Below are positions 3,218-33,563 of a stretch of DNA of 42,098 bases, one piece after another. Below the pieces are notes generated by a model, which ran no database searches, was not told where the DNA came from, and saw only the letters and a list, made by a program, of their open reading frames with translations. The DNA is taken from the NCBI GenBank assembly GCA_900317925.1, contig ONIQ01000017.1, positions 1-42,098 on the forward strand. The letters are read 5' to 3'. Made by a program: the position numbers and the translations under genes. The DNA is from an uncultured Bacteroidales bacterium. Its GTDB lineage: Bacteria; Bacteroidota; Bacteroidia; Bacteroidales; UBA932. Each line of letters begins with the position of its first letter. Position 1 is the stretch's first letter.

Positions 3218-3994
3218 TTATTTTCTGCAAACAATTTGTTTTTCGAACTTGACGTTCACCGTCCTATAGTAGTCGGCCCCTTTCTCCGGCACGATATACC
3301 GGTAGTAATCCTCCAACCGGCCGAATTTGTCGGCACAGTCGAAGGGATTGCCGAAAATGAAGCGCTCCTTCCCCTCGCGCGGGATCAGCACCAGGTCTCC
3401 GTTATTCTCTACATGCATCTGGACGATGGCATCCTTCCAAATCCGGCTGTGTTCCATGAACCGGACCATTTCCAGCATGCCGGCCAGCCACCGGTTTTCC
3501 TTCTCGTCCGAAATCCTCCCCTTGAAGCCCTCCGGGACCGTTATCGGGACGGCTCCGTCCACGATGGGAACGCGGGCCGTGAAATGCTCCTGGAGCGGGA
3601 AAATATAGCCTTGTGCATCGGCATACCAGCCCTGGCCGGCTTTCCTGAACCGCAGGACGGGCCGCCGCTGGAGAATGTTGATCCGGAGCATCCGGTCCTT
3701 CGTAACGTATGCCTCGCTCCGGAGGATGGCGCTCTTGCCTTCCAGCAGGGTCTCGATCCGCTTCAAGTCTACGCTGTCCAGCCGTTGGCCGATGTAGGCT
3801 CCGTAGTCCCGGGACAGGATGGCCTCCACTTCGTCCTGCGTGACGAAGGAACCCTCTCCGTCGAACGAGACTTCCAGCCGCTCGACCGTGCGCAGCCTGC
3901 GCTGGGATGCATCCAGCAGGCCCATGGCTACGAGAACCATGACCAGCAGGGCAGCCAGACCGGCTACGACCAGGTATGGGAGGACTTTTCTCAT
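3218..3994 (-). CDS. ftsQ: cell division protein FtsQ
   Basis: FtsQ is a bitopic membrane protein that links early and late divisome proteins. The 258-aa product has a short cytoplasmic N-terminus, one membrane segment (about residues 7-28, LVVAGLAALLVMVLVAMGLL), then a POTRA-like region (VERLEVSFDGEGSFVTQDEV and onwards) and the FtsQ/DivIB beta domain. The ATG overlaps the murC stop by 4 nt (ATGA), so translation is probably coupled. Sequence identity across FtsQ proteins is always low, so the call also rests on its position between murC and ftsA. Confidence 0.9.
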   Translation of the reverse strand: MRKVLPYLVVAGLAALLVMVLVAMGLLDASQRRLRTVERLEVSFDGEGSFVTQDEVEAILSRDYGAYIGQRLDSVDLKRIETLLEGKSAILRSEAYVTKDRMLRINILQRRPVLRFRKAGQGWYADAQGYIFPLQEHFTARVPIVDGAVPITVPEGFKGRISDEKENRWLAGMLEMVRFMEHSRIWKDAIVQMHVENNGDLVLIPREGKERFIFGNPFDCADKFGRLEDYYRYIVPEKGADYYRTVNVKFEKQIVCRK

Positions 3995-6609
3995 AAGCGT
4001 TTCTCCAGCATGTCCGTAATGGGACCGATAAAGCGGTCAATGTTGCCGGCGCCGAAGGTCACCAGCACGTCCACCGGTTCATGGGCCAGGTAATCCATCA
4101 GTTCCTCCTTTTTCAGCAGCACTTTCTCCGGGGCGGTTACCTTGTCGAAGATGATGTCCGAGGTGACGCCCGGGATGGGTTCTTCACGGGCCGGGTAGAT
4201 GTCCAGCAGGATCAGTTTGTCCACCCCGCTCAAGGCCTGTGCGAAGCCGTCTGCGAAGTCCCGCGTTCGGGTGAACAGGTGCGGCTGGAAGATGGCCGTC
4301 ATCTTGCGCGTGGGGAAGATCTCTTTCAGCGATGAAATGGCGGTTGCCAGTTCCTGTGGATGGTGGGCATAATCATCAATGTAGGTGCAGCCCGGCCGGT
4401 TTACGTGTACGTCCAGCCGCCTGCGCACACCCTGGAAAGAGGCGATGGCCTCGCGCACCTTCTCCGGGGCCAGGCCGTAGGTCAGGCACAGGGCCGCCGC
4501 AGCCACGCTGTTCTCCACGTTGAGCCATCCCGGTACGTTCGTACGCATCCCTTCCAGTACGCCTCCCGGCCAGACCAGGTCGAAGGAGAAGTATCCCAGT
4601 TCGTCGGGGACGATGTTCCGGGCATGGAAATCGGCCTTCGGGTCATTATAATGGTAGTGCAGGATCCGGGCCGGCGTATCCTGGGCCGTAAGCGGAAGCC
4701 CCAACTTAGCAATCAAGGTACCGCTCACCTGCGCGGCAAAGTCCTTGAAAGCCTGGCGGTAAGCCTCTGCTGTCCCGTAAATGTCCAGGTGGTCGGGGTC
4801 CATGGCCGTTACCACCGCCACTTCCGGGAACAACTGGAGGAAGGAACGGTCAAACTCGTCCGCTTCCGCCACCACTGTCGGCGTTTTCGAGGTAAGCAGG
4901 TTGGTATTGTAATTCTTGGAAATACCGCCCAGGAAGGCAGAGCAGCCTTCGCCCGATGCGGTCAGGATGTGGGCGGCCAGGGTGCTCGTCGTGGTCTTGC
5001 CATGCGTGCCCGCAACCGCCAGGCAGCGCTGCCCGCGGGCGATTTCGCCCAGCACGCGCGACCGTTTCACCAGCCGGTAGCCGTTTTCCCGAACGAAAAC
5101 CAGTTCCCCCATATCGTCCGGGATGGCCGGGGTATAGACCACCAGGGTTCCGTCCTTTTCGGACGGGACCAAATCCGGCCGGTCTTCATAGTGGATGGCG
5201 ATGCCTTCGGCCTCCAGTTCTTTCGTCAGATCAGAAGGAGTGCGGTCATAACCGCTCACCTCCAATCCTTTAAACTTATAGTACCGGGCAATCGCACTCA
5301 TCCCGATTCCCCCGATTCCGATAAAATATACCCGCTTGTAGGACGGACCTTCCATCTCGTTCGCTGAAAATAGGGGATATGCTCTCTCGACGGAAGATCC
5401 GTCCTCCTTAGCGGGTGCAGCCTTCGGCGAAGGAGCATATTCCCTCGTTCCTGCGAGTGAGTCGGAGGGTGCACCCGCTGAACCGAGGACCAATTTATAG
5501 GCTTCGTCGGCAATAACTTGCGCCGCGTTGGTCAGCGCCAACTTCGCAATATTGGCCTCCAGCTGCTGAATTCTCGCCTCGTCCCGGAGCAGTGCCAGAG
5601 CCGTCGGCAACAGCTGCTCCGGCGCCTCGGCATCCCGCACCATCAGGGCCGCATCCTTGTTCACCAGCGCCATCGCATTGTGCGTCTGATGGTCCTCCGC
5701 CACGTTCGGCGACGGCACAAAGATGGAAGCCTTGTGCGCGGCGCACAGCTCGGAAACGGTGCTCGCACCGCTGCGGGAGATGACCACATCGGCCACCGCA
5801 TACGCATAATCCATGCGCCCGATAAAGTCCGTAAAGTGGATGAACGGCAGGTTGCGGCCGGCCATAAAGGCTTCGATGCCTTTCTTGTAGTATTTGCCGC
5901 ACTGCCAGATGATTTCAACGTTGTCGCCGCCCGGGCAACCCTGCTCAATCCAATGCTTCATGGCTTTGTTCAGCGTACCGCTGCCCAGGCTTCCGCCCAC
6001 AATGAGCAGATGATCTTTCTGCGGATCCAATCCGTAGTACTCCATCCCCTCCAGCACCATCTGGGCGGTGGCGGGCACGATATCGGACCGGATGGGATTG
6101 CCGCTCATAACGATCTTATCGGCCGGGAAAAACCGCTCCATGCCCTCATACGCCACGCAGATGCAGCCGGCCTTGCGGCCCACGATCTTGTTGGTGAGCC
6201 CGGCAAAACCATTCTGCTCCTGGATGAGCGACGGGATGCCTTTGCGGGTTGCCTGCCACAGCAGGGGAGCGGAAGCGTATCCGCCTACGCCGATGGCGAT
6301 ATCGGGCTTGAACTCGTCCAGGATTCGGCCGGCCTCGCGGACGCTCTGGAAAACTTTGAAAGGCACCTTCAGGTCGTTCACAATGTTGTGCAGGTTGAGC
6401 TGGCGCTGCAGCCCCAGGATCGGCAGGCCCACAATCTTGTAGCCGGCTGCGGGCACCTTCTCCATCTCCATCTTGCCTTCTGCACCGACGAAAAGGATCT
6501 CCGTGTCCGGATTCAATTCCTTGAGCTTGTTGGCAATGGAAATGGCCGGGAAGATGTGCCCGCCCGTTCCGCCGCCGCTGATAATTACCCGAAGTGCCTT
6601 GTATTCCAT
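3991..6609 (-). CDS. murG-murC: MurG-MurC fusion protein (lipid II synthase / UDP-MurNAc:L-Ala ligase)
   Basis: One open frame of 872 codons carries two consecutive cell-wall enzymes. Residues 1 to about 376 are MurG, the membrane-associated GlcNAc transferase that makes lipid II, with the G-loop SGGGTGGHIFPA at 11-22. Residues from about 424 are MurC, the ATP-dependent ligase adding L-Ala to UDP-MurNAc, with the dinucleotide-like FIGIGGIGMSA start, the ATP loop GTHGKTTT near 534 and DDYAHHPQE. Residues 377-423 are a low-complexity linker encoded almost wholly by two inverted palindromic elements (5340-5405, 5410-5479). The chosen start at 6609 (MEYKALRVIISG) lies 4 nt after ftsW. An internal ATG at 5355 would give a stand-alone MurC of 454 aa, the usual size, so separate MurC synthesis is possible. 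The 3' end overlaps ftsQ by 4 nt. Confidence 0.93.
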   Translation of the reverse strand: MEYKALRVIISGGGTGGHIFPAISIANKLKELNPDTEILFVGAEGKMEMEKVPAAGYKIVGLPILGLQRQLNLHNIVNDLKVPFKVFQSVREAGRILDEFKPDIAIGVGGYASAPLLWQATRKGIPSLIQEQNGFAGLTNKIVGRKAGCICVAYEGMERFFPADKIVMSGNPIRSDIVPATAQMVLEGMEYYGLDPQKDHLLIVGGSLGSGTLNKAMKHWIEQGCPGGDNVEIIWQCGKYYKKGIEAFMAGRNLPFIHFTDFIGRMDYAYAVADVVISRSGASTVSELCAAHKASIFVPSPNVAEDHQTHNAMALVNKDAALMVRDAEAPEQLLPTALALLRDEARIQQLEANIAKLALTNAAQVIADEAYKLVLGSAGAPSDSLAGTREYAPSPKAAPAKEDGSSVERAYPLFSANEMEGPSYKRVYFIGIGGIGMSAIARYYKFKGLEVSGYDRTPSDLTKELEAEGIAIHYEDRPDLVPSEKDGTLVVYTPAIPDDMGELVFVRENGYRLVKRSRVLGEIARGQRCLAVAGTHGKTTTSTLAAHILTASGEGCSAFLGGISKNYNTNLLTSKTPTVVAEADEFDRSFLQLFPEVAVVTAMDPDHLDIYGTAEAYRQAFKDFAAQVSGTLIAKLGLPLTAQDTPARILHYHYNDPKADFHARNIVPDELGYFSFDLVWPGGVLEGMRTNVPGWLNVENSVAAAALCLTYGLAPEKVREAIASFQGVRRRLDVHVNRPGCTYIDDYAHHPQELATAISSLKEIFPTRKMTAIFQPHLFTRTRDFADGFAQALSGVDKLILLDIYPAREEPIPGVTSDIIFDKVTAPEKVLLKKEELMDYLAHEPVDVLVTFGAGNIDRFIGPITDMLEKRL
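5340..5405 (-). repeat. in-frame palindromic element, copy 1 (MurG-MurC linker)
   Basis: Arms at 5340-5353 and 5392-5405 are complementary at 13 of 14 positions. The centre contains CGTTCGCTGAAA and ATATGCTCTCTCG on the plus strand and matches the rsmH copy at about 30 of 34 positions. Translated on the minus strand as part of the fusion it reads ERAYPLFSANEMEG. The arms are unlike those of the other copies, although each pairs with itself. Confidence 0.85.
5410..5479 (+). repeat. in-frame palindromic element, copy 2, inverted (MurG-MurC linker)
   Basis: Arms at 5410-5426 and 5463-5479 pair at 15 of 17 positions, starting AGCGGGTGCA. The centre is the reverse complement of the copy 1 and rsmH centres (GCATATTCCCTCGTTC on the plus strand), matching the rsmH copy at about 28 of 33 positions. 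It lies only 4 nt from copy 1. In the fusion protein it is read from its other strand as SLAGTREYAPSP, so the element is open in both orientations. Confidence 0.82.
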
Positions 6610-6613
6610 ATCT

Positions 6614-8008
6614 TTATTCCAGATTATCGATTTCTTCAATGTCGTTGAGCTCATTCAATGCCTCCATGTCCGGCTCGTCGGCAGGCATCGCTTCCAGCTG
6701 GGCGCGGGCCTGTGCCGCCTGGATTTCCTTGTCCATCTTGCGTTTCGCGCTCCGGCTGATGGACAGGATGATGCCAAAGGCGATGCTGAACATGATGAAC
6801 GAGGAGTTTCCGTGGCTCACCATGGGGAGGGTCTGTCCGGTGAGCGGACCGATGCCCACGTTGATGAACATGTGCATCATGGCCTGGCCGGTGATGAGCA
6901 GCACCAAGCCGGCCACGGCCGTCTTCGCAAACAGGTTGTCGCAGTTGCGGACGATCATGGAACCACGCGCCAACAGGCTGATATACAGGAAGATGACCAC
7001 AATGGCTCCCAAGATGCCGTATTCCTCTATGATGAAACTGAACATGTAGTCTTCGAACATGACCGGTACCACGTACCGCTGCGTACTGCCGCCCGGGCCT
7101 TTACCGATGAGGATGCCCCGGCCTTCGTGCACCGCAATCTTGGCGCTCATGGGCTGCTTCATCTTGTCCAGCGCCCGCTGGAATTCGATGGAATTCCGCG
7201 GCTTGGTGCGGATGACCTCCAGCTGATGCTCGCGGTTGTTTTCCAGACGCGCCAGGGCGCTCTCCAGGTGAGGGAAGATGGGTTTCGGCGTGGCTTTGTC
7301 GATGGCCACGAGGAGGAGCAGCAGGGCAATGGCGCCCACAAAAGGAAGAATCAGCTCCTTGACGCTGATGCCGCCCACCAGGATGGTTACGAACATGATG
7401 CCGCCGATAAAGAGCGTACTGGACAGGGACCCCGGCATGATGCCCACGCAAACCGAAAGCATGGGGAAATAGACATAGGTAAACTTCGTGATGCCATCTG
7501 CATGCTTCTGCACCCAAGGTGAATCCTTGAAGAAGATGGGATGCAACTTTTTGTTCTGATAGGCATCCACGGCCCAGGACAGGTACATGACCATGGCCAC
7601 CTTGACCACTTCGAATACGTGCACCTGGAACCCGAATACCGAGATGGAACGCCAGGCATCGTTGATATACAGGGCCTTGATGACGCCCAGGTTGCCGTGG
7701 GCGACGAGGAAGATGAGCAGGAGCATGGAAAAGCCCCAGCCCAGTTTGGAAACGGCCCGGAAAAACCGCTGGCTCCGGATATTGTAGCAGAGGATGATGA
7801 AGAAGAGACCCGCCAGCGAGATCAGCAACTGCTCTTTCATGATGGCCGTCCGCGTGGTATGCTGCTGGATGGCCAGCAGGGGCGTGGACGAGAAGATGGC
7901 TACGATGGACAGGAGGATGAGCAGGAGCACAATCATCCAGACCACCTTGTCGCCTTGCAGGTTGCCTACGAAATTCCAGAATTTCTTGCCGTTGTCTCGC
8001 TTCGCCAT
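6614..8008 (-). CDS. ftsW: lipid II polymerase FtsW (SEDS family)
   Basis: FtsW is the septal peptidoglycan glycosyltransferase, a multi-pass inner-membrane SEDS protein that works with FtsI. The 464-aa product has about ten hydrophobic segments, beginning VVWMIVLLLILLSIVAIF. It has the periplasmic motif YVVPVMFEDYMFSFIIEE, whose Asp corresponds to the catalytic acidic residue of SEDS enzymes, and the late motif NVGIGPLTGQTLPMVSHGNS. The C-terminal tail after KRKMDKE is acidic and cytoplasmic. A ~65-residue soluble stretch in the middle (KATPKPIFPHLESALARLEN and on) makes it longer than the E. coli protein. Spacing is 3 nt after murD and 4 nt before murG. Confidence 0.95.
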   Translation of the reverse strand: MAKRDNGKKFWNFVGNLQGDKVVWMIVLLLILLSIVAIFSSTPLLAIQQHTTRTAIMKEQLLISLAGLFFIILCYNIRSQRFFRAVSKLGWGFSMLLLIFLVAHGNLGVIKALYINDAWRSISVFGFQVHVFEVVKVAMVMYLSWAVDAYQNKKLHPIFFKDSPWVQKHADGITKFTYVYFPMLSVCVGIMPGSLSSTLFIGGIMFVTILVGGISVKELILPFVGAIALLLLLVAIDKATPKPIFPHLESALARLENNREHQLEVIRTKPRNSIEFQRALDKMKQPMSAKIAVHEGRGILIGKGPGGSTQRYVVPVMFEDYMFSFIIEEYGILGAIVVIFLYISLLARGSMIVRNCDNLFAKTAVAGLVLLITGQAMMHMFINVGIGPLTGQTLPMVSHGNSSFIMFSIAFGIILSISRSAKRKMDKEIQAAQARAQLEAMPADEPDMEALNELNDIEEIDNLE

Positions 8009-8011
8009 GGT

Positions 8012-9358
8012 TTACAGTCTCCTGACAGCTTCTTTGAATTTTTCTCCGCGGTCTTCGTAATTCTTGAACAGGTCGAAGCTGGCGCAGCAGGGGCTCAGGA
8101 GCACCACGTCGCCCGGCTGGGCGAATTGGCTGGCTGCCTGGACCGCTTCTTCGGCACTCAGCGCATCTACCATCTTATCGGTTCCCACGATGTCTTCGAA
8201 GGCGGCGTGGAGTTTTTTGTTATCGACCCCCAGGCACACGATGGCCTTGACTTTTTCCCGCACCAGGTCGGCCAGGACGCTGTAGTCGTTTCCCTTGTCG
8301 GTGCCGCCGGCAATCCACACAACGGGTTTGCGCTGGCATTCCAGGGCGTACCAGGCCGAATCCACGTTGGTGGCCTTGGAGTCATTGATATAGAGGACGT
8401 CGCGGATGCTCAAAACGGGCTCCAGCCGGTGTTCGATGGCTTGGAAGGACGACAGGGACTTCCGGATCACATCGTTGCCGATGCCCGCCGCCTTGGCTGC
8501 CAGGGCCGCCGCCATGGAGTTGTACACGTTGTGCCGTCCGCCGAGTGCAAGCTCCTGTAGGTACAGGTCGCATTCTTCCTCCTGGTAGCGCACCACCATC
8601 TTCTCGTCCTTGACAAAGGCGCCTTCTTTCAACTCCACGCCTTCCTTCTGGGTGAACGGGAGCATTTTGGCCTGGATGATGATCTTGTTCAGGTGGTCGA
8701 TGGTGATGGCGTCGTCCGAATCAAAAATGAAGCAGTCTTCCTTGCGGAGGTTGCGGGTGATGCGGAATTTGGCCTTCACGTAGTTTTCCATCTGGTAGTC
8801 GTAACGGTCCAGGTGGTCGGGCGTAATGTTGGTGATGATGGCGATATCGGGCCGGAAATCATAGCAGTTGTCCAGCTGGAAGCTGCTGATTTCCAGGACA
8901 TAATAATCGAAATGTTCCGTGGCTACCTGGTAGGCGTAGCTCTTGCCGATGTTGCCGCCCAGCCCCACGTTCAGGCCTGCGTTCTGCAGCAGGTAGTAGA
9001 TCAGGGAAGTGGTCGTGGTCTTGCCGTTGCTGCCGGTGATGCAGATCTTTTTCGCGGTGTCGTACCGGCCCGCAAATTCGATCTCGGAAATGATATGCGT
9101 ACCCTTCTCCTCCAGCTTGCGCACCATCGGGGCCGTGCTGGGGATGCCGGGGCTTTTTACAACCTCGTCGGCGTTGAGGATGAGTTCCTCGGTATGCTGT
9201 CCTTGCTCGAAGGGAATCTCCCATTTGCGCAGTTCGTCCGCATATTTCGGATCGATGGTTCCCTTATCGGACAGGAACACGTCGAAGCCTTTCACCTTTG
9301 CGAGCACGGCGGCTCCCACGCCGCTTTCCGCTCCTCCCAAAACTACGATTCTTGACAT
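8012..9358 (-). CDS. murD: UDP-MurNAc-L-alanine:D-glutamate ligase MurD
   Basis: MurD is the cytoplasmic ATP-dependent ligase that adds D-Glu to UDP-MurNAc-L-Ala. The 448-aa product shows an N-terminal UDP-binding region (IVVLGGAESGVGAAVLAK), the ATP loop ITGSNGKTTTTSLIYYLL near residue 107, the NITPDHLDRYD motif, and the C-terminal domain motif NDSKATNVDSAWYALE followed by WIAGGTDKGNDY. Length is normal for the family. It lies 24 nt downstream of mraY and is followed by ftsW after 3 nt. Confidence 0.97.
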   Translation of the reverse strand: MSRIVVLGGAESGVGAAVLAKVKGFDVFLSDKGTIDPKYADELRKWEIPFEQGQHTEELILNADEVVKSPGIPSTAPMVRKLEEKGTHIISEIEFAGRYDTAKKICITGSNGKTTTTSLIYYLLQNAGLNVGLGGNIGKSYAYQVATEHFDYYVLEISSFQLDNCYDFRPDIAIITNITPDHLDRYDYQMENYVKAKFRITRNLRKEDCFIFDSDDAITIDHLNKIIIQAKMLPFTQKEGVELKEGAFVKDEKMVVRYQEEECDLYLQELALGGRHNVYNSMAAALAAKAAGIGNDVIRKSLSSFQAIEHRLEPVLSIRDVLYINDSKATNVDSAWYALECQRKPVVWIAGGTDKGNDYSVLADLVREKVKAIVCLGVDNKKLHAAFEDIVGTDKMVDALSAEEAVQAASQFAQPGDVVLLSPCCASFDLFKNYEDRGEKFKEAVRRL

Positions 9359-9382
9359 TGTATCGATCTATCTTTCAAATAA

Positions 9383-10654
9383 TTATCTAACTTTCAACAG
9401 GGCCAGGGTCGCGACGGCCAGCAAAATGCCCACAATCCAGAAACGGGCTACGATCTTGGCTTCGTGATGCGGGGGTACGGGCTTGGGAATGAGCACCTTG
9501 CCCGGAACCTGCTTCTTGTCCTGATAGTGGTGATGGAGCGGGGTCATGCTCCAGATGCGGGCGCCTTCGCCGGTTTTGCGTTTGGTCCACCGGAAATAGG
9601 TCCGCTGCATCAGTACGCTCAAGCTTTCCATCAGGAAAATGCCGCACAGCAGCGGGAGCAGCAGTTCCTTGCGGATGAGCACGGCGCTCACGCCGATGAT
9701 GCCGCCGATGGTGAGGCTGCCCGTATCGCCCATGAACACCTGGGCGGGGTAGGAGTTGTACCAGAGGAACCCGATCAGCGCGCCCACGAAGGCACTCATA
9801 AAGATGGCAATCTCTCCAGAACCCGGTATGTACATGATGTTCAGGTAGTTCGAATCGATGAGGTTGCCGCCCAGCCAGGCCAGTACGCCGATGACGACGC
9901 CTACGATGGCCGAGGTTCCCGCCGCCAGGCCGTCCAGGCCGTCGGTGAGGTTGGTGCCGTTGGAGCAGGCGGTGATGACGAACACGATCATCAGCACGTA
10001 GATCATCCATTTGGTGTACCAGTTCCATTTGCCTTTCAGGGGCGAAAGCCATTTGTAATCAAATTCATGGTCCTTGACGAAGGGGATGGTGGTCTTGGTG
10101 CTCTTGACCACGTCTTCGTTCCGGTAGCGGCCCGATTCTACGATTTCTTCCTGTTCCTCTTCGGGAATGGCCACCTTTTCCCGGACGACGATGTCGTCGC
10201 TGGTCCAGACGGTGAGCCCGATGACCAGGCCCAACAGGATCTGGGCAAGCAACTTGCCGTGTTCGCTCATTCCTTCCTTGTTGTGCTTGAACACCTTGAT
10301 ATAGTCGTCGGTGAAGCCCAGCGCTCCGCACCAAAGGGTGCTGAGCAGGAGCAGGAGCACATATACATTGGTGAGGTCGCAGAAGAGCAGCACGGCCGTA
10401 AGGATGGACAGGATGATGATCACGCCGCCCATGGTGGGGGTGCCTTTCTTTTCAATCTGGCCCTGGAGACCCAGGTCGCGGACCGTTTCGCCAATCTGTT
10501 TGCGCTGGAGCAGGGCAATGATTTTCTTGCCCACGAGCAGGGAGAACAACATGGCGGTGGCGCTGGCCAGGAAGGCCCTGAATGACAGATAGTTCATCAA
10601 TCCCTGTCCGGGGATGTCATATTCTTTCAGCAGTTGGAACAGGTGGTATATCAT
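9383..10654 (-). CDS. mraY: phospho-MurNAc-pentapeptide transferase MraY
   Basis: MraY is an integral membrane enzyme that moves phospho-MurNAc-pentapeptide onto undecaprenyl phosphate to form lipid I. The 423-aa product has the N-terminal motif KKGTPTMGGVIII, the Asp-rich motif GFTDDYIKVFKHN, NGTNLTDGLDGLAAG, and the final MTPLHHHYQ motif with the conserved His cluster. Membrane segments cover most of the rest. An insertion of about 60 residues after the fourth segment (VREKVAIPEEEQEEIVESGR) accounts for its size relative to the ~360-aa E. coli enzyme, as is usual in Bacteroidetes. The start overlaps the murE stop by 4 nt (ATGA). Confidence 0.97.
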   Translation of the reverse strand: MIYHLFQLLKEYDIPGQGLMNYLSFRAFLASATAMLFSLLVGKKIIALLQRKQIGETVRDLGLQGQIEKKGTPTMGGVIIILSILTAVLLFCDLTNVYVLLLLLSTLWCGALGFTDDYIKVFKHNKEGMSEHGKLLAQILLGLVIGLTVWTSDDIVVREKVAIPEEEQEEIVESGRYRNEDVVKSTKTTIPFVKDHEFDYKWLSPLKGKWNWYTKWMIYVLMIVFVITACSNGTNLTDGLDGLAAGTSAIVGVVIGVLAWLGGNLIDSNYLNIMYIPGSGEIAIFMSAFVGALIGFLWYNSYPAQVFMGDTGSLTIGGIIGVSAVLIRKELLLPLLCGIFLMESLSVLMQRTYFRWTKRKTGEGARIWSMTPLHHHYQDKKQVPGKVLIPKPVPPHHEAKIVARFWIVGILLAVATLALLKVR

Positions 10655-12123
10655 AACGTCTCAAATACTTCTTTAACAATTTCCCTCTCGTCAAAATGCC
10701 GTTTTTCCGTGCCGATAATCTGGTAGGTTTCGTGTCCTTTCCCGGCCAGCAGGATGCTGGAGCCTTCGGGAGAGAGCAGCAGGGCGGTACGGATGGCCTC
10801 GCGGCGGTCGGCGATAAACACGGCCTTTGCCAGACCGGCGGGGCTGAAACCGGCTTTGATATCGTCCAGGATATCTTCGGTGCGCTCCGTGCGGCTGTTG
10901 TCGGAGGTGACGAAGATGCGGTCGGCGTATTTTTCGGCTACCTGCGCCATCTCCGGGCGCTTGGTCTTGTCCCGGTCGCCCCCGCAGCCGAACAGGCACA
11001 CCAGGTTCTTTTTCGGGGCGATGTCGCGCAGGGTCTTCAGCACGTTGTCCAGGGCGTCGGGCGTATGAGCGTAATCGATGATGACGCTTAAGCCACGCGG
11101 ACCGGACAGGTTCTCCAGACGGCCTTTGGCGGGAGTCAGCCGGCTCAGGGCCACCAGCACCTCGTCGGGTTTCGCACCCACTTCCAGGGCGGCCGAGTAG
11201 ATGGCCAGCAGGTTGTAGGCGTTGTGCTGTCCGATCAGACGGGTCCAGGTCTCCCGGCCGTCGATGCGCAGCATCATCCCCTCGAAACTCTCTTCCATGA
11301 CGCGGCAGGTGTGGTCGGCCATGCTCCGGAGCGAGTAGGTCACCACGCGGGCCTGCGTGTTCTGGACCATCACCATGCCGTGTTTGTCGTCGATATTGGT
11401 CAGGGCAACGGCATCGGACGGGAGATTGTCGAAGAACAGTTTCTTGCAGCGGAGGTATTCCGCAAAGGTCTTGTGGTAATCCAGGTGGTCGTGGGTCAGG
11501 TTGGAGAAGATGCCCACCCGGAAGGCCAGGCCGGCAACCCGCTCCTGTTCCACGCCGATGGAACTGACTTCCATGAAGCAGTATTCGCAGCCAGCCTGTA
11601 CCATCTGAGCCATCAGCGAGTTGATGGTGATGGGGTCTGAGGTGGTGTTGACGGCTTCGAATTCTTTTTTGTCCACGAAGTTGGCGATGGTGGAAAGCAG
11701 GCCGCAGGAGTATCCCAGATTCATGAACAGGTGATACAGCAGGGTAACGGTCGTGGTCTTGCCGTTGGTGCCGGTAATGCCCACGAGGGTCAGCTTGCGG
11801 GAAGGATGGTCGAAGAAATTGTCGGCCATCAAGGCCACGGCGTGCCGGGAATTCTCTACTTGGACGAAGGTGACAGAGGCATCGGCACCGGACTTTTTCA
11901 TCGCGGCAGCGACAGCATCGGCATCTTCATACGCAATGGCGACGGCTCCTTTTTCGATGGCCGAGGCGATGTAGGCATGCCCGTCCGAAGCATAGCCTTT
12001 TACAGCGACGAACAGGGCGCCGGGAACGACCTGGCGCGAGTCGCTGCACAGGGCCGTAATCTCACGGTCCGGGCCATGCATGGCGGCAACGCCGCATCCT
12101 TTTATGATCTGGCTCAGTTTCAT
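10651..12123 (-). CDS. murE: UDP-MurNAc-tripeptide synthetase MurE
   Basis: MurE is the cytoplasmic ligase that adds the third stem-peptide residue, meso-diaminopimelate in most Gram-negatives. From the ATG at 12123 (MKLSQIIKGCGVA) the product has 490 aa, with CSDSRQVVPGALFVAVKGYA, the ATP loop GITGTNGKTTTVTLLYH, and VIIDYAHTPDALDNVL. The substrate-selecting motif reads SDNSRTE where DAP-adding enzymes normally have DNPR. The Asn and Arg are kept and the Pro is Ser. This still fits DAP better than the lysine-type motif. The longer upstream frame is rejected because the 12123 start overlaps the ftsI stop by 4 nt, matching the coupling seen elsewhere in the operon. Confidence 0.96.
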   Translation of the reverse strand: MKLSQIIKGCGVAAMHGPDREITALCSDSRQVVPGALFVAVKGYASDGHAYIASAIEKGAVAIAYEDADAVAAAMKKSGADASVTFVQVENSRHAVALMADNFFDHPSRKLTLVGITGTNGKTTTVTLLYHLFMNLGYSCGLLSTIANFVDKKEFEAVNTTSDPITINSLMAQMVQAGCEYCFMEVSSIGVEQERVAGLAFRVGIFSNLTHDHLDYHKTFAEYLRCKKLFFDNLPSDAVALTNIDDKHGMVMVQNTQARVVTYSLRSMADHTCRVMEESFEGMMLRIDGRETWTRLIGQHNAYNLLAIYSAALEVGAKPDEVLVALSRLTPAKGRLENLSGPRGLSVIIDYAHTPDALDNVLKTLRDIAPKKNLVCLFGCGGDRDKTKRPEMAQVAEKYADRIFVTSDNSRTERTEDILDDIKAGFSPAGLAKAVFIADRREAIRTALLLSPEGSSILLAGKGHETYQIIGTEKRHFDEREIVKEVFETL

Positions 12124-14237
12124 TTCAGTGTAAGATTGATGATGGTTCCGGCGGGTTTTGCTCCACCTGCGGCAGGGCTTTGTGCCGCGACATGGCCCGT
12201 ACCGGTCCATTCGCAGCGGTATCCTGCATTCTCAATGGCATATACAGCATCTTCCAGTCCCATCCCTTTGACGTCCGGAACGATGGGTTTCTTCTTGTCT
12301 TCCGGTGCGTTGATGGTGGGGACGACCATTTCGGGGAAAGCGCCTTTTTTGGTGAGCACCTCGGTGGGCGCGTTGTCCATCGCATAGAGGTTGTCCACGA
12401 TCTCGCCCATGGTCATGGCCGGGATGGTGCCGCCGTAGAAGGTCTTGGCGGACAGCCTCGAATAGATGGTGACGATGGCCGTGTAGCGGGGGGCATCGGC
12501 CGGGAAGAAGCCCACGAAGGTAGCCTGGTTCTTTTTGCGGCCCCACGCGTCGCGGTACGGATCGCCCGAACCCTTGGCTTCGGCGGGGGAGAGAACCACC
12601 CACGAGGTGCCGGTCTTGCCGGCTACTTCCCATTTGCGGTTGCGCAGACGCTTCGCGGTACCTTCCTCAATGACGGAGCGGAGGCCTCGCACGAGGGTAT
12701 CGGCCGTGGCGGGTGAACAGATGGATGCGTTCAGCACGCTGGGACCGAGTTTCTTTTTCACCACGCCATACTGCTCGATGCTTTCCACCAGGTAGGGTTT
12801 CATCATGCGGCCGCGGTTGGCGATGGCATTGTAGAAGGTGACAATGTGCAGCGGGGTTTCGGACACGTTGTATCCGATGGCCACCTGTCCCAGGTCGGTG
12901 TCGCTCCAGTAGCGACTGTCCGGCGAGGGCACGGAGGGCGTGGCCATGCCTTCCAGGTCGAAGTCGAAGGCTTCGCCCAGCTTGTACATGTATATTTTGT
13001 CCAGGAACTTTTTGGGGTTCCGGGCGTAGTTGGTCACGGCCAGATAGCGGAACATGTAGTTGGACGACACCTTGAAGCCCTCGATGATGGGGATTTCCTT
13101 GGCGCCGCCGTTGGCCCGTTCGTACTGGGTGATGTGGTCGTCAATGCCCGGGAATCCTTTCATAAAACCGTGGTTGGAAGGGATTTTGTCGTCCAGCGAG
13201 TGGATGATGCCGTCTTCGATGACGGTCATGAGGGTGCTGGTTTTGAAGACCGAACCCGGTTCGCCCTTGCGTCCGATGGCCATGTTCAGCACCTCGTTCA
13301 CCCGCCCCGAGGTGGAGTCGCGCAGGAGGTTCACCATGGCGCGGACGGCTCCCGTTTTGACATCCAGCACCACCACGCAACCGCCTTCGATGTCTTCGTT
13401 CTCGGCGATGTTGCGGCGCAGGGCTTTGTCTGCGATATCCTGCAGGTCGATGTTGAGGGTGGTGCGCACGTCCATGCCGTCCACGGCCTCTTTGTATCCT
13501 TTCTGGAAATCCTGGATCCGGCCGCGGTTATCCGTGGTGCGGAGCCACATCTGGCCTTCGGTCCCGTGCAGGACATAGTCGAATTTTCCTTCCAGGCCGA
13601 TGTGGTTGTTGCCGTTGGAGTTGCTGTTATCCTTTACGTAGCCGATGGTGCGGCGGGCCAGCGTGCCGTACGGATACTGGCGCGTATCTTTCTTTTCGAT
13701 GATCATGCCGCCCTTGTACTGGCCTTCGCGGAAGAGCGGAAGCCCCTTTACGGTCTGGAGGGTTTCGTGATCGATCATGTGCCCGAGTTTGAGATACCGG
13801 CTCCCTTTCTCCCGTCCTTCCAGGATGAGGTTGTAGTACTGCTCGGCAGTCTTGTCGCGGTAAACGGAGGCCAGGCCGTCGCAAAGCTCGCGGGCTTTTT
13901 CCCGCCAGGCCTGCTCGCGGGCGGCGCCGTCCTTCCTGTCGTAGGCGTGGGCTTCTTTGAGAACCGTGCAGTCCATGTAGATCTGGTACATGGGCGTGGA
14001 CACGGCCAGCAGGCGGCCGTCGTGCGAGATAATGGCGCCCCGTTCGGGATACAGGGTTTCGCGGATGCTCTGGGGACGGAAGAAGGCTTCGATGTCTTTG
14101 TCCGGGGTCCAGATCCACTGGATGTAGATGATGCGGCCGATCAGCAGCACCGCGGCGGCAAGGAACGCAAAGTAGAGGGCAGACAGAATCATGCCGATCC
14201 TGTCGCGTCCCTGCTCCTGTTGTTGCTGTCTTGCCAT
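12120..14237 (-). CDS. ftsI: septal transpeptidase FtsI (PBP3-type) with PASTA domain
   Basis: FtsI is a class B penicillin-binding protein that crosslinks septal peptidoglycan with FtsW. The 705-aa product has one N-terminal membrane segment (MILSALYFAFLAAAVLLIG), a dimerisation/pedestal region, and a transpeptidase domain. The catalytic SVFK motif lies near residue 330, SSN near 392 and AGKTGT near 542. The last ~60 residues (PIVPDVKGMGLEDAVYAI and on) form a PASTA domain, often present in Bacteroidetes and Gram-positive enzymes and absent from E. coli FtsI. It lies 35 nt after ftsL. Confidence 0.95.
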   Translation of the reverse strand: MARQQQQEQGRDRIGMILSALYFAFLAAAVLLIGRIIYIQWIWTPDKDIEAFFRPQSIRETLYPERGAIISHDGRLLAVSTPMYQIYMDCTVLKEAHAYDRKDGAAREQAWREKARELCDGLASVYRDKTAEQYYNLILEGREKGSRYLKLGHMIDHETLQTVKGLPLFREGQYKGGMIIEKKDTRQYPYGTLARRTIGYVKDNSNSNGNNHIGLEGKFDYVLHGTEGQMWLRTTDNRGRIQDFQKGYKEAVDGMDVRTTLNIDLQDIADKALRRNIAENEDIEGGCVVVLDVKTGAVRAMVNLLRDSTSGRVNEVLNMAIGRKGEPGSVFKTSTLMTVIEDGIIHSLDDKIPSNHGFMKGFPGIDDHITQYERANGGAKEIPIIEGFKVSSNYMFRYLAVTNYARNPKKFLDKIYMYKLGEAFDFDLEGMATPSVPSPDSRYWSDTDLGQVAIGYNVSETPLHIVTFYNAIANRGRMMKPYLVESIEQYGVVKKKLGPSVLNASICSPATADTLVRGLRSVIEEGTAKRLRNRKWEVAGKTGTSWVVLSPAEAKGSGDPYRDAWGRKKNQATFVGFFPADAPRYTAIVTIYSRLSAKTFYGGTIPAMTMGEIVDNLYAMDNAPTEVLTKKGAFPEMVVPTINAPEDKKKPIVPDVKGMGLEDAVYAIENAGYRCEWTGTGHVAAQSPAAGGAKPAGTIINLTLK

Positions 14238-14272
14238 TTTGTTCCCGTTTTTTTGTCTTTATTATTCCGGCT

Positions 14273-14629
14273 CTATTTTTGGATGCGGGCGGCGGGCTTT
14301 TCCGGAAGACCCACCTTGGACCCTTTCTCTTCCAACAGGTCCCGCACCGTGGTCATCCGGTTCAGACCGGCCAGTTCCACCACTTTTTGGGCGTGGTAAA
14401 TCTCCACGTTTGCCAGTTCTTTCTTGCCGGCCTCCACTTTCGTGAGGGTCTTTTCTACCTGAAGGCTTAGCCAAATACTCATGAAGAACAGGAAGAAGGT
14501 CCAGATGATGTGGATGAAGTACTGGCCCAGGTTCATGGTGTTCATGAAATCGCCCCGCTTGATCGCTCCGAGTGCCCGGACGATCCAGCGGCCGACATCG
14601 GCCCATCTCCATTTCCTTTCGTTCTCCAT
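14273..14629 (-). CDS. ftsL: FtsL-like divisome protein
   Basis: This is a small bitopic protein of 118 aa. A charged cytoplasmic start (MENERKWRWADVGRW) is followed by one membrane segment (YFIHIIWTFFLFFMSIWLSL, about residues 37-56) and a periplasmic helix with coiled-coil character (QVEKTLTKVEAGKKELANVE). Topology, size and position between rsmH and ftsI match FtsL, which forms a complex with FtsQ and a DivIC/FtsB partner to activate FtsWI. Sequence alone is weakly conserved, so the name rests mainly on context. Confidence 0.85.
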   Translation of the reverse strand: MENERKWRWADVGRWIVRALGAIKRGDFMNTMNLGQYFIHIIWTFFLFFMSIWLSLQVEKTLTKVEAGKKELANVEIYHAQKVVELAGLNRMTTVRDLLEEKGSKVGLPEKPAARIQK

Positions 14630-14654
14630 ATAGTGGCTTAAATGTCGCTTTCTT

Positions 14655-15740
14655 TCAAATTTTTTCCGCGATGCGGAGTTTTGCGCTCCGTGCGCGGGTA
14701 TTCCTGGCGATTTCCTCCTCGCTCGGAAGAATCGGTTTGCGGTTCACAGCCTGCAAGGGGGCGTGCGTGCGGCCGTACAGGTCTTTTTCTTCCCGCCCTT
14801 CCACATTGCCGGTTTTGATGAAATTTTTCACCATGCGGTCTTCCAGCGAGTGATAGGTGATCACCACCAGCCGGCCGCCGGGTTTCAGTGACGCTGCCGC
14901 CCCTTCGAGGAATTTCTCCAGCGAGTGCATCTCCTGGTTTACCTCGATCCGAAGCCCCTGATACACCTTGGCCAGCACCTTGTGCTCGGCCATTTTCGGG
15001 AGGATGGGTGCCAGCGCCTTGTCCAGCTGACCCGTGGTCCGGATGGGCTCTTGTTCGCGGGCTGATACAATCAAGCGGGCGGCCTTGCGGGGATTGTCCA
15101 CCTCGGCATACAGGCGCAGGATGCGCTCCAGCTCGGCCTCGCCATAGGTATTGACGATGTCGGCAGCCGTTTTCCCGGCTTCGGTGTTCATGCGCATATC
15201 CAAGGGCGCATCGAACCGGAACGAGAAGCCCCGCTCCGCTGTGTCGAACTGGTGGGACGATACCCCGAGGTCTGCCAGGATCCCGTCGAAGACAGCCCCT
15301 TCCGCCTCCTGTGCGGGTTGGCCTTCCGCCTCCGGCAGACCCTCCGGTTCGTTCGCTGAAACGAGGGAATATGCTCTCTCGCCGGAGGGTCTGCCGGAGG
15401 CCACGCCAGCCTTGGCGGTCAGTTGCTTGCCAACCCTGGCGGTCGGCTGTTCGCCGGCCGAAAGGGCGGCCAGCCCTTTGCGCCAGGCCAGGACACCGTA
15501 GTTGTGGATAAAGCGGAAATTGTTGTGAATCAAGATCAGACGCGGATCGTCGATCTTGTTATCAAGGGCCTGAATGTCACGATCGAAGGCGATGACGAAA
15601 CCGTCTTCGTGCAAGCGTGAAAGAACTCCGGCGGTGTGACCACCGCCTCCGAATGTGGCATCAGCGTATAGTCCGGAGGGATTGGTGACGAGAGCCGAAA
15701 CGCTCTCTGTAAGCAGCACCGGTGTATGATATTCAGACAT
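14655..15740 (-). CDS. rsmH: 16S rRNA m4C1402 methyltransferase RsmH with a ~60-residue insertion
   Basis: RsmH (MraW) methylates the N4 of C1402 in 16S rRNA using SAM. The 361-aa product starts YHTPVLLTESV, has the SAM motif DATFGGGGHT (27-36), FDGILADLGVSSHQFD (151-166) and VITYHSLEDRMVKNF. Family members are normally about 300-315 aa. The excess lies at roughly residues 85-148, between the usual NNFRFIHNYGVL strand and the DGILADLGVSS motif. That insertion contains an 8-residue tandem repeat (97-112) and a palindromic element (114-138) reading ERAYSLVSANEPEG, nearly the same peptide as in the MurG-MurC linker. The conserved motifs on both sides are intact, so the enzyme is probably active. 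The ribosome binding site is a full AGGAGG. Confidence 0.95.
   Translation of the reverse strand: MSEYHTPVLLTESVSALVTNPSGLYADATFGGGGHTAGVLSRLHEDGFVIAFDRDIQALDNKIDDPRLILIHNNFRFIHNYGVLAWRKGLAALSAGEQPTARVGKQLTAKAGVASGRPSGERAYSLVSANEPEGLPEAEGQPAQEAEGAVFDGILADLGVSSHQFDTAERGFSFRFDAPLDMRMNTEAGKTAADIVNTYGEAELERILRLYAEVDNPRKAARLIVSAREQEPIRTTGQLDKALAPILPKMAEHKVLAKVYQGLRIEVNQEMHSLEKFLEGAAASLKPGGRLVVITYHSLEDRMVKNFIKTGNVEGREEKDLYGRTHAPLQAVNRKPILPSEEEIARNTRARSAKLRIAEKI
15328..15401 (-). repeat. in-frame palindromic element, copy 3 (inside rsmH)
   Basis: A perfect 20-bp inverted repeat, arms 15328-15347 and 15382-15401 (plus strand beginning GCCTCCGGCAGACC), flanks a 34-nt centre containing CGTTCGCTGAAA and ATATGCTCTCTCG. 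The centre is shared with the two elements in the murG-murC junction while the arms are not. The reading frame of rsmH passes through it, coding residues 114-138. Confidence 0.88.
15407..15454 (-). repeat. two tandem 24-nt repeats within rsmH
   Basis: Units 15407-15430 and 15431-15454 share CTGGCGGTC-type sequence and encode the imperfect 8-residue repeat EQPTARVG / KQLTAKAG in RsmH. They directly adjoin the palindromic element. On its other side CCTTCCGCCTCC also occurs twice, 24 nt apart (15298-15309, 15322-15333). Confidence 0.7.
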
Positions 15741-16245: not shown

Positions 16246-16361
16246 CGAATAATTTTCCATTTTCTTCCATCTTTTTACAATTTTTTCCACATTTTTATCA
16301 ACAGCACCGGCCTGTCCTTTTTCGGGTGCAATCCTAACCCCTTGCCACAGAGCAATTTCCC

Positions 16362-16398
16362 GGAAAGCCGGTTCCCAAAAAACGGGAACCGGCTTTCC
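16362..16398 (-). terminator. perfect 15-bp inverted repeat, probable terminator of the HAD gene
   Basis: GGAAAGCCGGTTCCC (16362-16376) and its exact complement (16384-16398) enclose the 7-nt loop AAAAAAC. It lies 42 nt past the stop of the minus-strand HAD gene and upstream of the dcw promoter. There is no clear T-run after the stem on either strand, so it is not a textbook intrinsic terminator, although the location fits. Confidence 0.5.
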
Positions 16399-16440
16399 AG
16401 CAAGCGTTTGATTATTAAGAAGTTAAAAATGCAGAAAAGG

Positions 16441-33492: not shown

Positions 33493-33524
33493 CAAACTTA
33501 ATAAAAAAAAGAAAAAGAGACAAC
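33493..33524 (-). promoter_or_regulatory. promoter of the SusCD operon
   Basis: On the minus strand GTTG (33524-33521), a 20-nt spacer, and TAAGTTTG (33500-33493) match the Bacteroidetes pattern. The -7 box ends 18 nt before the peptide A ATG. The -33 box lies within the terminator stem of the upstream GLUG gene. Confidence 0.55.
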
Positions 33525-33542
33525 CGAAATTGCCTCTTTTTC
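33503..33542 (-). terminator. intrinsic terminator after the GLUG-repeat gene
   Basis: Arms 33511-33523 and 33530-33542 pair over 13 positions, the single non-Watson-Crick position being a G-U wobble. The loop is 6 nt, and on the minus strand eight T follow (33510-33503). This is the clearest intrinsic terminator in the window and lies 21 nt past the GLUG gene stop. Confidence 0.85.
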
Positions 33543-33563
33543 TTCAAAAAGAATGGTTCCGTC

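Follow-up and report, generated by a model that had tools for sequence, protein, structure and literature searches.

Whether a short palindrome can lie inside a core gene without spoiling its reading frame, and how it came to be there, is the question raised by the DNA analysed here, a stretch of 42,098 nucleotides from an uncultured Bacteroidales bacterium (the host) that is referred to below as the window. The original prediction, made from the letters of this stretch, described three palindromic copies with a common centre and self-complementary arms, inserted in frame in essential genes. The features concerned are as follows.

3991-6654, minus strand: fused murG-murC frame (887 aa), with TIGR01133 at residues 19-383 and TIGR01082 at residues 442-876; the segment separating the enzymes contains copies 1 and 2
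5336-5409, plus strand: element copy 1, covariance model match; arms 5336-5355 and 5390-5409, core 5356-5389
5408-5481, minus strand: element copy 2, covariance model match; arms 5408-5427 and 5462-5481, core 5428-5461
14655-15740, minus strand: rsmH (361 aa), TIGR00006, with copy 3 inside
15328-15401, plus strand: element copy 3, covariance model match; arms 15328-15347 and 15382-15401, core 15348-15381

All three copies were recovered at the places predicted, both by reading the sequence and with covariance models. Their arms pair with each other and differ from copy to copy, as had been claimed, with 15, 19 and 20 of 20 arm positions paired in copies 1, 2 and 3, respectively, when G-U pairs are allowed. 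A shared centre is likewise present, although the 28-30 matches in 33-34 positions first reported were slightly generous, hand counts for the three pairwise comparisons giving 25, 27 and 30 of 34. Translated from the minus strand, copy 1 reads VERAYPLFSANEMEG in the linker between MurG and MurC and copy 3 reads GERAYSLVSANEPEG in RsmH, while copy 2, which abuts copy 1 in the opposite orientation, reads DSLAGTREYAPSP; these peptides agree with those given originally, and no frame is broken, copies 1 and 2 being contained in the MurG-MurC frame between the two enzymes and copy 3 in RsmH. The folding of copy 3 with its flanks exceeds chance, with a z of -7.95. Two further stretches of the window, 16358-16402 and 33505-33548, are strong plain hairpins that lack the core and match the model weakly; they are possibly terminators.

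A first alignment of nine copies, made up of the three in the window and six host copies from a pattern search, showed a 34-nt core flanked by 20-nt arms, in which 92.6% of arm cells were paired, compared with 45-51% when the 3′ partners were shifted by 1-3 columns, and in some copy both sides had changed at 19 of the 27 pairs. The set was extended with three covariance models built in turn (R2 and R3 among them). Among 74 copies from many species, 86.5% of cells were paired against 39-46% with the partners slid; the information content was 0.01-0.69 bit in arm columns, which were nevertheless 91% paired, and up to 2 bits in core columns. The consensus of the core, some 34 nt, is roughly TCGCAGRAAA..AGG.AATATGCTC..TCG and is stop-free in most frames; matches are 66-108 nt long, mostly about 74, and the stem of about 20 bp has no conserved sequence. 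Copies with nearly the same core need not have similar arms. Core identity is at least 0.91 in 24 pairs of copies, only one of which (L022-L105) sits in the same gene of both species; in 17 of the other 23 the arm identity runs are at most 5 nt on both sides, and in the remaining six an inner stem of 8-11 nt is shared on at least one side (on both in five of the six). Subfamilies were judged by eye from a view of the 26 loci L075-L100 without L082, L089 and L096: the host has the ERAYSLVSANE type, a second coding type reading SVAEKKADAPSGAS occurs in other species, and a third lies outside coding-like frames in several species.

Some copies depart from this plan. Two cores (L033:1501-1608 and L036:1501-1586) are longer and interrupted, as if the core had received an insertion, and the first of these, at 108 nt the longest match, is identical in the sister metagenome-assembled genome (MAG) RUG14513. 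Elsewhere the arms run on into tandem repeats (L026:1554-1643, L013 upstream of position 1501, and L069, a GH95-like gene of RUG14513); at L026 a 30-nt unit is present three times. These repeats look as though a minisatellite had grown out of an arm. A short tandem repeat of the GGTTGGCGCCTATCA type in the flank of RUG14513 locus L114 (query about 1081-1260) is unrelated to the element.

The original prediction expected a mobile element to be dispersed over the whole genome, often in coding regions and missing from orthologues in sister species, rather than limited to three copies or conserved in all distant orthologues. A covariance search of the host genome (2.18 Mb, 95% complete) gave 35 matches (R2, E <= 0.1), mostly coding and in frame. 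Several copies of the family are absent from orthologues in the sister species and in other relatives, and neither of the two outcomes named beforehand as refuting the prediction was observed. RUG14513, which is titled 'uncultured Bacteroidia bacterium', gave 37 matches under the same model and threshold. Within the genus, which is perhaps Cryptobacteroides, 52 of 400 genomes carry the element at E <= 0.001 (host and RUG14513 counted), a figure that may be an undercount because 12 candidates were scored per genome and that may include single weak chance hits near the threshold; among the high-quality genomes of the genus it was found in 13 of 150 at the same threshold. Over the family 7 of 398 genomes have it, confined to one of 25 genera, and over the order it was found in 1 of 393, the host itself, with no match in the others, of which about 390 fall outside the genus by their order of kinship. 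Carriage by viruses was rejected, two exact-pattern scans of viral contigs having given no match, and a pattern scan of named genomes, from which the records nearest the host may be missing, returned 14 stretches, 13 from RUG14513 and one other (L054).

Thirty-two of the 35 host copies lie in open frames with coding-like codon usage. Strictly intragenic copies number 31; the copy at L018 precedes the probable start of an HtrA-type protease. On average 4.5 of six frames are open in a host copy compared with 2.9 of six in shuffled copies, and 22 of the 32 coding-like copies use two registers that are exchanged when the core is inverted (L023, misplaced by its motif, is excluded). Family models identified the carriers as RsmH, MurG-MurC, HisD-HisC, PurL, an RsmF-type methyltransferase, a PatB-type lyase, TilS, HemW, FolP, Fmt, DnaX, CysS, MutS, a U32 peptidase, a BatD/TPR protein, an A2M-family protein and a GH3 glycosidase; for L014, L033 and L120 the family-model libraries tried gave no hit.

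Two gene pairs are fused in the host, with copies of the element at the joints. In the relatives displayed, murC has its own start, often with an ATGA overlap with murG (e.g. L143, L148 and L153), and in the host and RUG14513 the murG-murC junction consists of two abutting opposite copies with a single frame running through them. In host HisD-HisC, HisD extends to residue 438, the element occupies residues 442-466 and HisC begins at residue 488; this fusion is also found in RUG14513, and hisC is separate from hisD in L205 and L206. In the relative G270, murC lies in a frame of 639 aa. An in-frame ATG stands directly ahead of MurC in the host (MEGPSYKRVYF), so that translation of MurC may also begin internally.

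In RsmH the copy sits in a loop. Between residues 81 and 151 the host protein has about 70 residues, copy 3 included, where the solved relatives 3tka and 1wg8 have 9, and the insert is predicted to be disordered, residues 93-146 having pLDDT below 50 in a modest model (mean pLDDT 68.8, ten sequences). At L144, L198 and L199 the loop bounded by FRFI.NY and DGILADLG is short and has no insert, and at L195 and L162 different copies of the family are found in it. The site appears permissive, and was filled either repeatedly or by an ancient copy that has since changed. The RsmH proteins of G355 and G396 (L167 and L197) have a different insert of about 40 residues in the same loop, which is not recognised by R3 and is perhaps a decayed copy or another element.

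Comparison of the two sister species revealed alleles with and without the element. Clean presence/absence sites are five in number, GH3, HisA, PurH, AroE and RnfB. The host GH3 gene has a 72-nt insert, reading LCS, 24 residues and GTKVRK, where RUG14513 reads LCSGTKVRK. For the ten RUG14513 loci with no partner locus among those of the host, the counterpart stretch was found in the host in every case (for L114 by 55 nt only): HisA, PurH, AroE and RnfB (L129, L130, L136 and L131) have no copy there (no R3 match), AtpG, a MalQ-like gene, the GH95-like gene and L133 have apparent decayed or one-armed remnants, the TruB counterpart has no core, and the state of L064/L135 is ambiguous, the names AtpG, MalQ-like, GH95-like and TruB being read from translations. 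Because the HisA insert is absent from the host and from the five relatives displayed (of eight fetched, picked by motif), the RUG14513 insert is derived on present evidence. The empty PurH allele may be the scar of a loss, as it is three residues longer than the eight relatives displayed (of 19 fetched, picked by motif). In the other direction, two of six pieces from host loci without a RUG14513 partner were matched, Fmt and L019; at Fmt the RUG14513 core is present and the arms are decayed.

Where both species keep a copy, the core may lie in either direction. Copies 1 and 2 are both identical in RUG14513 (copy 1 over 74 nt). Of the 21 orthologous sites, three have a core that lies the other way round between its arms. 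In rsmH (copy 3), 39 of 40 arm positions are identical between the species and the core is identical at 34 of 34 positions after reversal, so that the peptide ERAYSLVSANE of one RsmH is SFAETREYALS in the other with the frame unshifted; at L071/L068 the arms are identical at 38 of 40 positions and the reversed cores at 32 of 34, and at L121/L112 at 28 of 40 and 25 of 34. In yeast genes, according to the sections of a study cited here, template switching at inverted repeats homogenises the arms and inverts the spacer (PMC8604942). The three inverted cores would be as polymerase template switching predicts, and we prefer this process to selection for the stem as the account of these alleles. Identity over the 21 orthologous pairs, which include only copies recognised in both species (an ascertainment bias) and some overlapping flanks, was 93.7% in cores, 92.1% in arms and 88.5% in flanks, with the core above the flank in 17 of 21; such conservation of the element above its flanks is what a neutral passenger would not show, and on these alignments would count against one. 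Arm changes between the sisters are often one-sided, and arm correction is therefore incomplete. Forty of 500 arm positions had changed on both sides and were still paired; as 32 of the 40 come from L022, L023, L030 and L032, which are not clear orthologues, compensatory evolution of the arms was dropped as a general claim.

The reading that we consider probable is that these copies form a short, dispersed, apparently non-autonomous palindromic family, tolerated in genes because it can be translated. What is inherited as the identity of the element would be the core of about 34 nt, which in each copy caps a stem of about 20 bp whose sequence is particular to that copy; template switching by the polymerase between the arms during replication would keep the stems paired and flip the cores, and cores that read through in both orientations would persist in genes. 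A benefit to the cell need not be assumed; the by-products would be additional loops, probably disordered, together with enzyme fusions and protein changes that span several residues. If the copies were functional hairpins of RNA or DNA, acting in regulation, in the modulation of translation or in protein binding, and were maintained by selection in the genes bearing them, with stems that change in a compensatory way, this would explain why cores and arms are conserved above flanks in the 21 orthologous pairs, why the stems are very stable and why both-sided changes at the orthologous site L018 preserve pairs. We nonetheless regard such a function as unlikely, since the copies lie in unrelated host genes and in either orientation, the same gene may lack a copy in the sister or in relatives, cores are inverted, remnants are decayed, and no Rfam model matched the window at the gathering threshold. 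It is very improbable that the copies arose as an artefact of assembly, amplification or contamination, even though to our knowledge every genome in the comparison is a metagenome assembly and L054 comes from a MAG titled Chloroflexi: the same sites with the same arms recur in two separate assemblies, other subfamilies are found in further genomes, reading frames are kept, and L054 was rejected as a true copy and taken as a chance hit because it has no paired arms.

Template switching within a translatable palindromic family accounts for upkeep and flipping, and not for arrival at new sites. We tentatively suggest, as a possibility that we rate as doubtful, a mobile element without a transposase, in which the hairpin tip (the core with a varying inner stem) would be copied between sites by replication template switching, the outer stem would be new at each site and the core would flip in place, with the result that core enzymes across one genus would contain invertible peptides in frame and would occasionally be fused by them. 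No enzyme or donor for the movement was found with the Y1 (PF01797) profile or among arm matches in the host loci and the window, where the arms of 31 host copies gave only matches of 13-17 nt beyond their own site and neighbouring copies. Movement of a REP- or MITE-like element by a transposase encoded elsewhere (e.g. Y1/RAYT or an insertion sequence) appears improbable: short dispersed palindromes are often moved so, the RAYT-REP association being an example in the parts of the account cited (PMC3733652), and RUG14513 has one Y1 match, whereas PF01797 matches occur in 9 of the 14 element-bearing genomes examined and in 5 of the 10 that lack the element, with none in the host at E <= 1e-5, no element lies near the six Y1 loci fetched, and the arms, which form the termini, lack the conservation shown by MITE terminal repeats. 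Y1 was the transposase family covered, and with no association between it and the element in these genome counts and loci a Y1/RAYT transposase was rejected as the mover. A preference for palindromic targets was also dropped. Two empty alleles looked palindromic by eye, and the fraction of positions along the locus that are as palindromic as the target was 0.015 for PurH, 0.20 for GH3, 0.79 for HisA and 0.70 for AroE, so that only PurH, the possible scar, stands out of these four clean sites.

Gene fusion, core inversion and the spread in one genus go beyond the original prediction. Seemingly useless DNA would here add to, join and rewrite parts of core proteins. Some genomes of this Bacteroidales genus contain dozens of copies, and between two close species the same sites occur with the element present, absent, decayed or inverted. 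The entry of an element, its absorption into a protein and the beginnings of a fusion thus become testable by comparing sister alleles.

The best-known palindromic elements that sit in frame in coding genes are those of Rickettsia and Wolbachia. The palindromic elements of these bacteria (RPE and WPE) are described, in the parts of the reports cited, as dispersed repeats of several families that lie partly in genes without loss of frame, and one gene site may hold different families in different species (PMC3767692, PMC10969869). The likeness drawn in the original prediction holds as an analogy, with 35 dispersed host copies of which 32 are in coding-like frames, and does not establish membership: RPE measure 100-150 bp in the passages cited (PMC3767692) and the matches here 66-108 nt, mostly about 74; the element belongs to one Bacteroidales genus; and it has a shared core, copy-specific stems and cores inverted between species, the RPE being compared by description only. 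By this analogy the element would work like an RPE, and it is not classed as one. REPs, as characterised in the portions of the source cited, are short dispersed palindromes, some intragenic and often paired, as here, but their conserved stems are short, as a rule 6-9 bp, they end in a GTAG or CGTC tag and they lie for the most part outside genes (PMC3733652), whereas the present stem of about 20 bp has no conserved sequence and Y1 genes do not track with the element. It does not group with MITEs either, the arms not being common to most copies with near-identical cores; no target-site duplication, a MITE feature, was seen by eye at clean sites, where the boundaries are ambiguous. A literature search, in which subscription journals for the most part and preprints fell outside the coverage, found no description of such elements in Bacteroidales, which is weak evidence of absence. 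Yeast GC clusters and the sponge RHE are, going by their titles, reportedly mobile or invading short repeated or hairpin-forming elements of mitochondria; they belong to organelle genomes and the likeness is one of title only.

The mitochondrial genes of Nematomorpha contain coding inverted repeats whose arms are kept identical, for which template switching has been proposed; the repeats are perfect and up to 284 bp long, with no dispersed shared core described in the sections cited (PMC6649704), in contrast to the dispersed 34-nt core found here. The template switching reported from yeast offers, within the extracts cited, both signs seen here, arm homogenisation and spacer inversion in coding sequence, as a mutational process at short repeats that are unrelated to one another and whose inverted spacers measure a few bases (PMC8604942), whereas here it would act on one dispersed element with a 34-nt core, whose copies would be recurrent natural instances in which template switching rewrites a protein.
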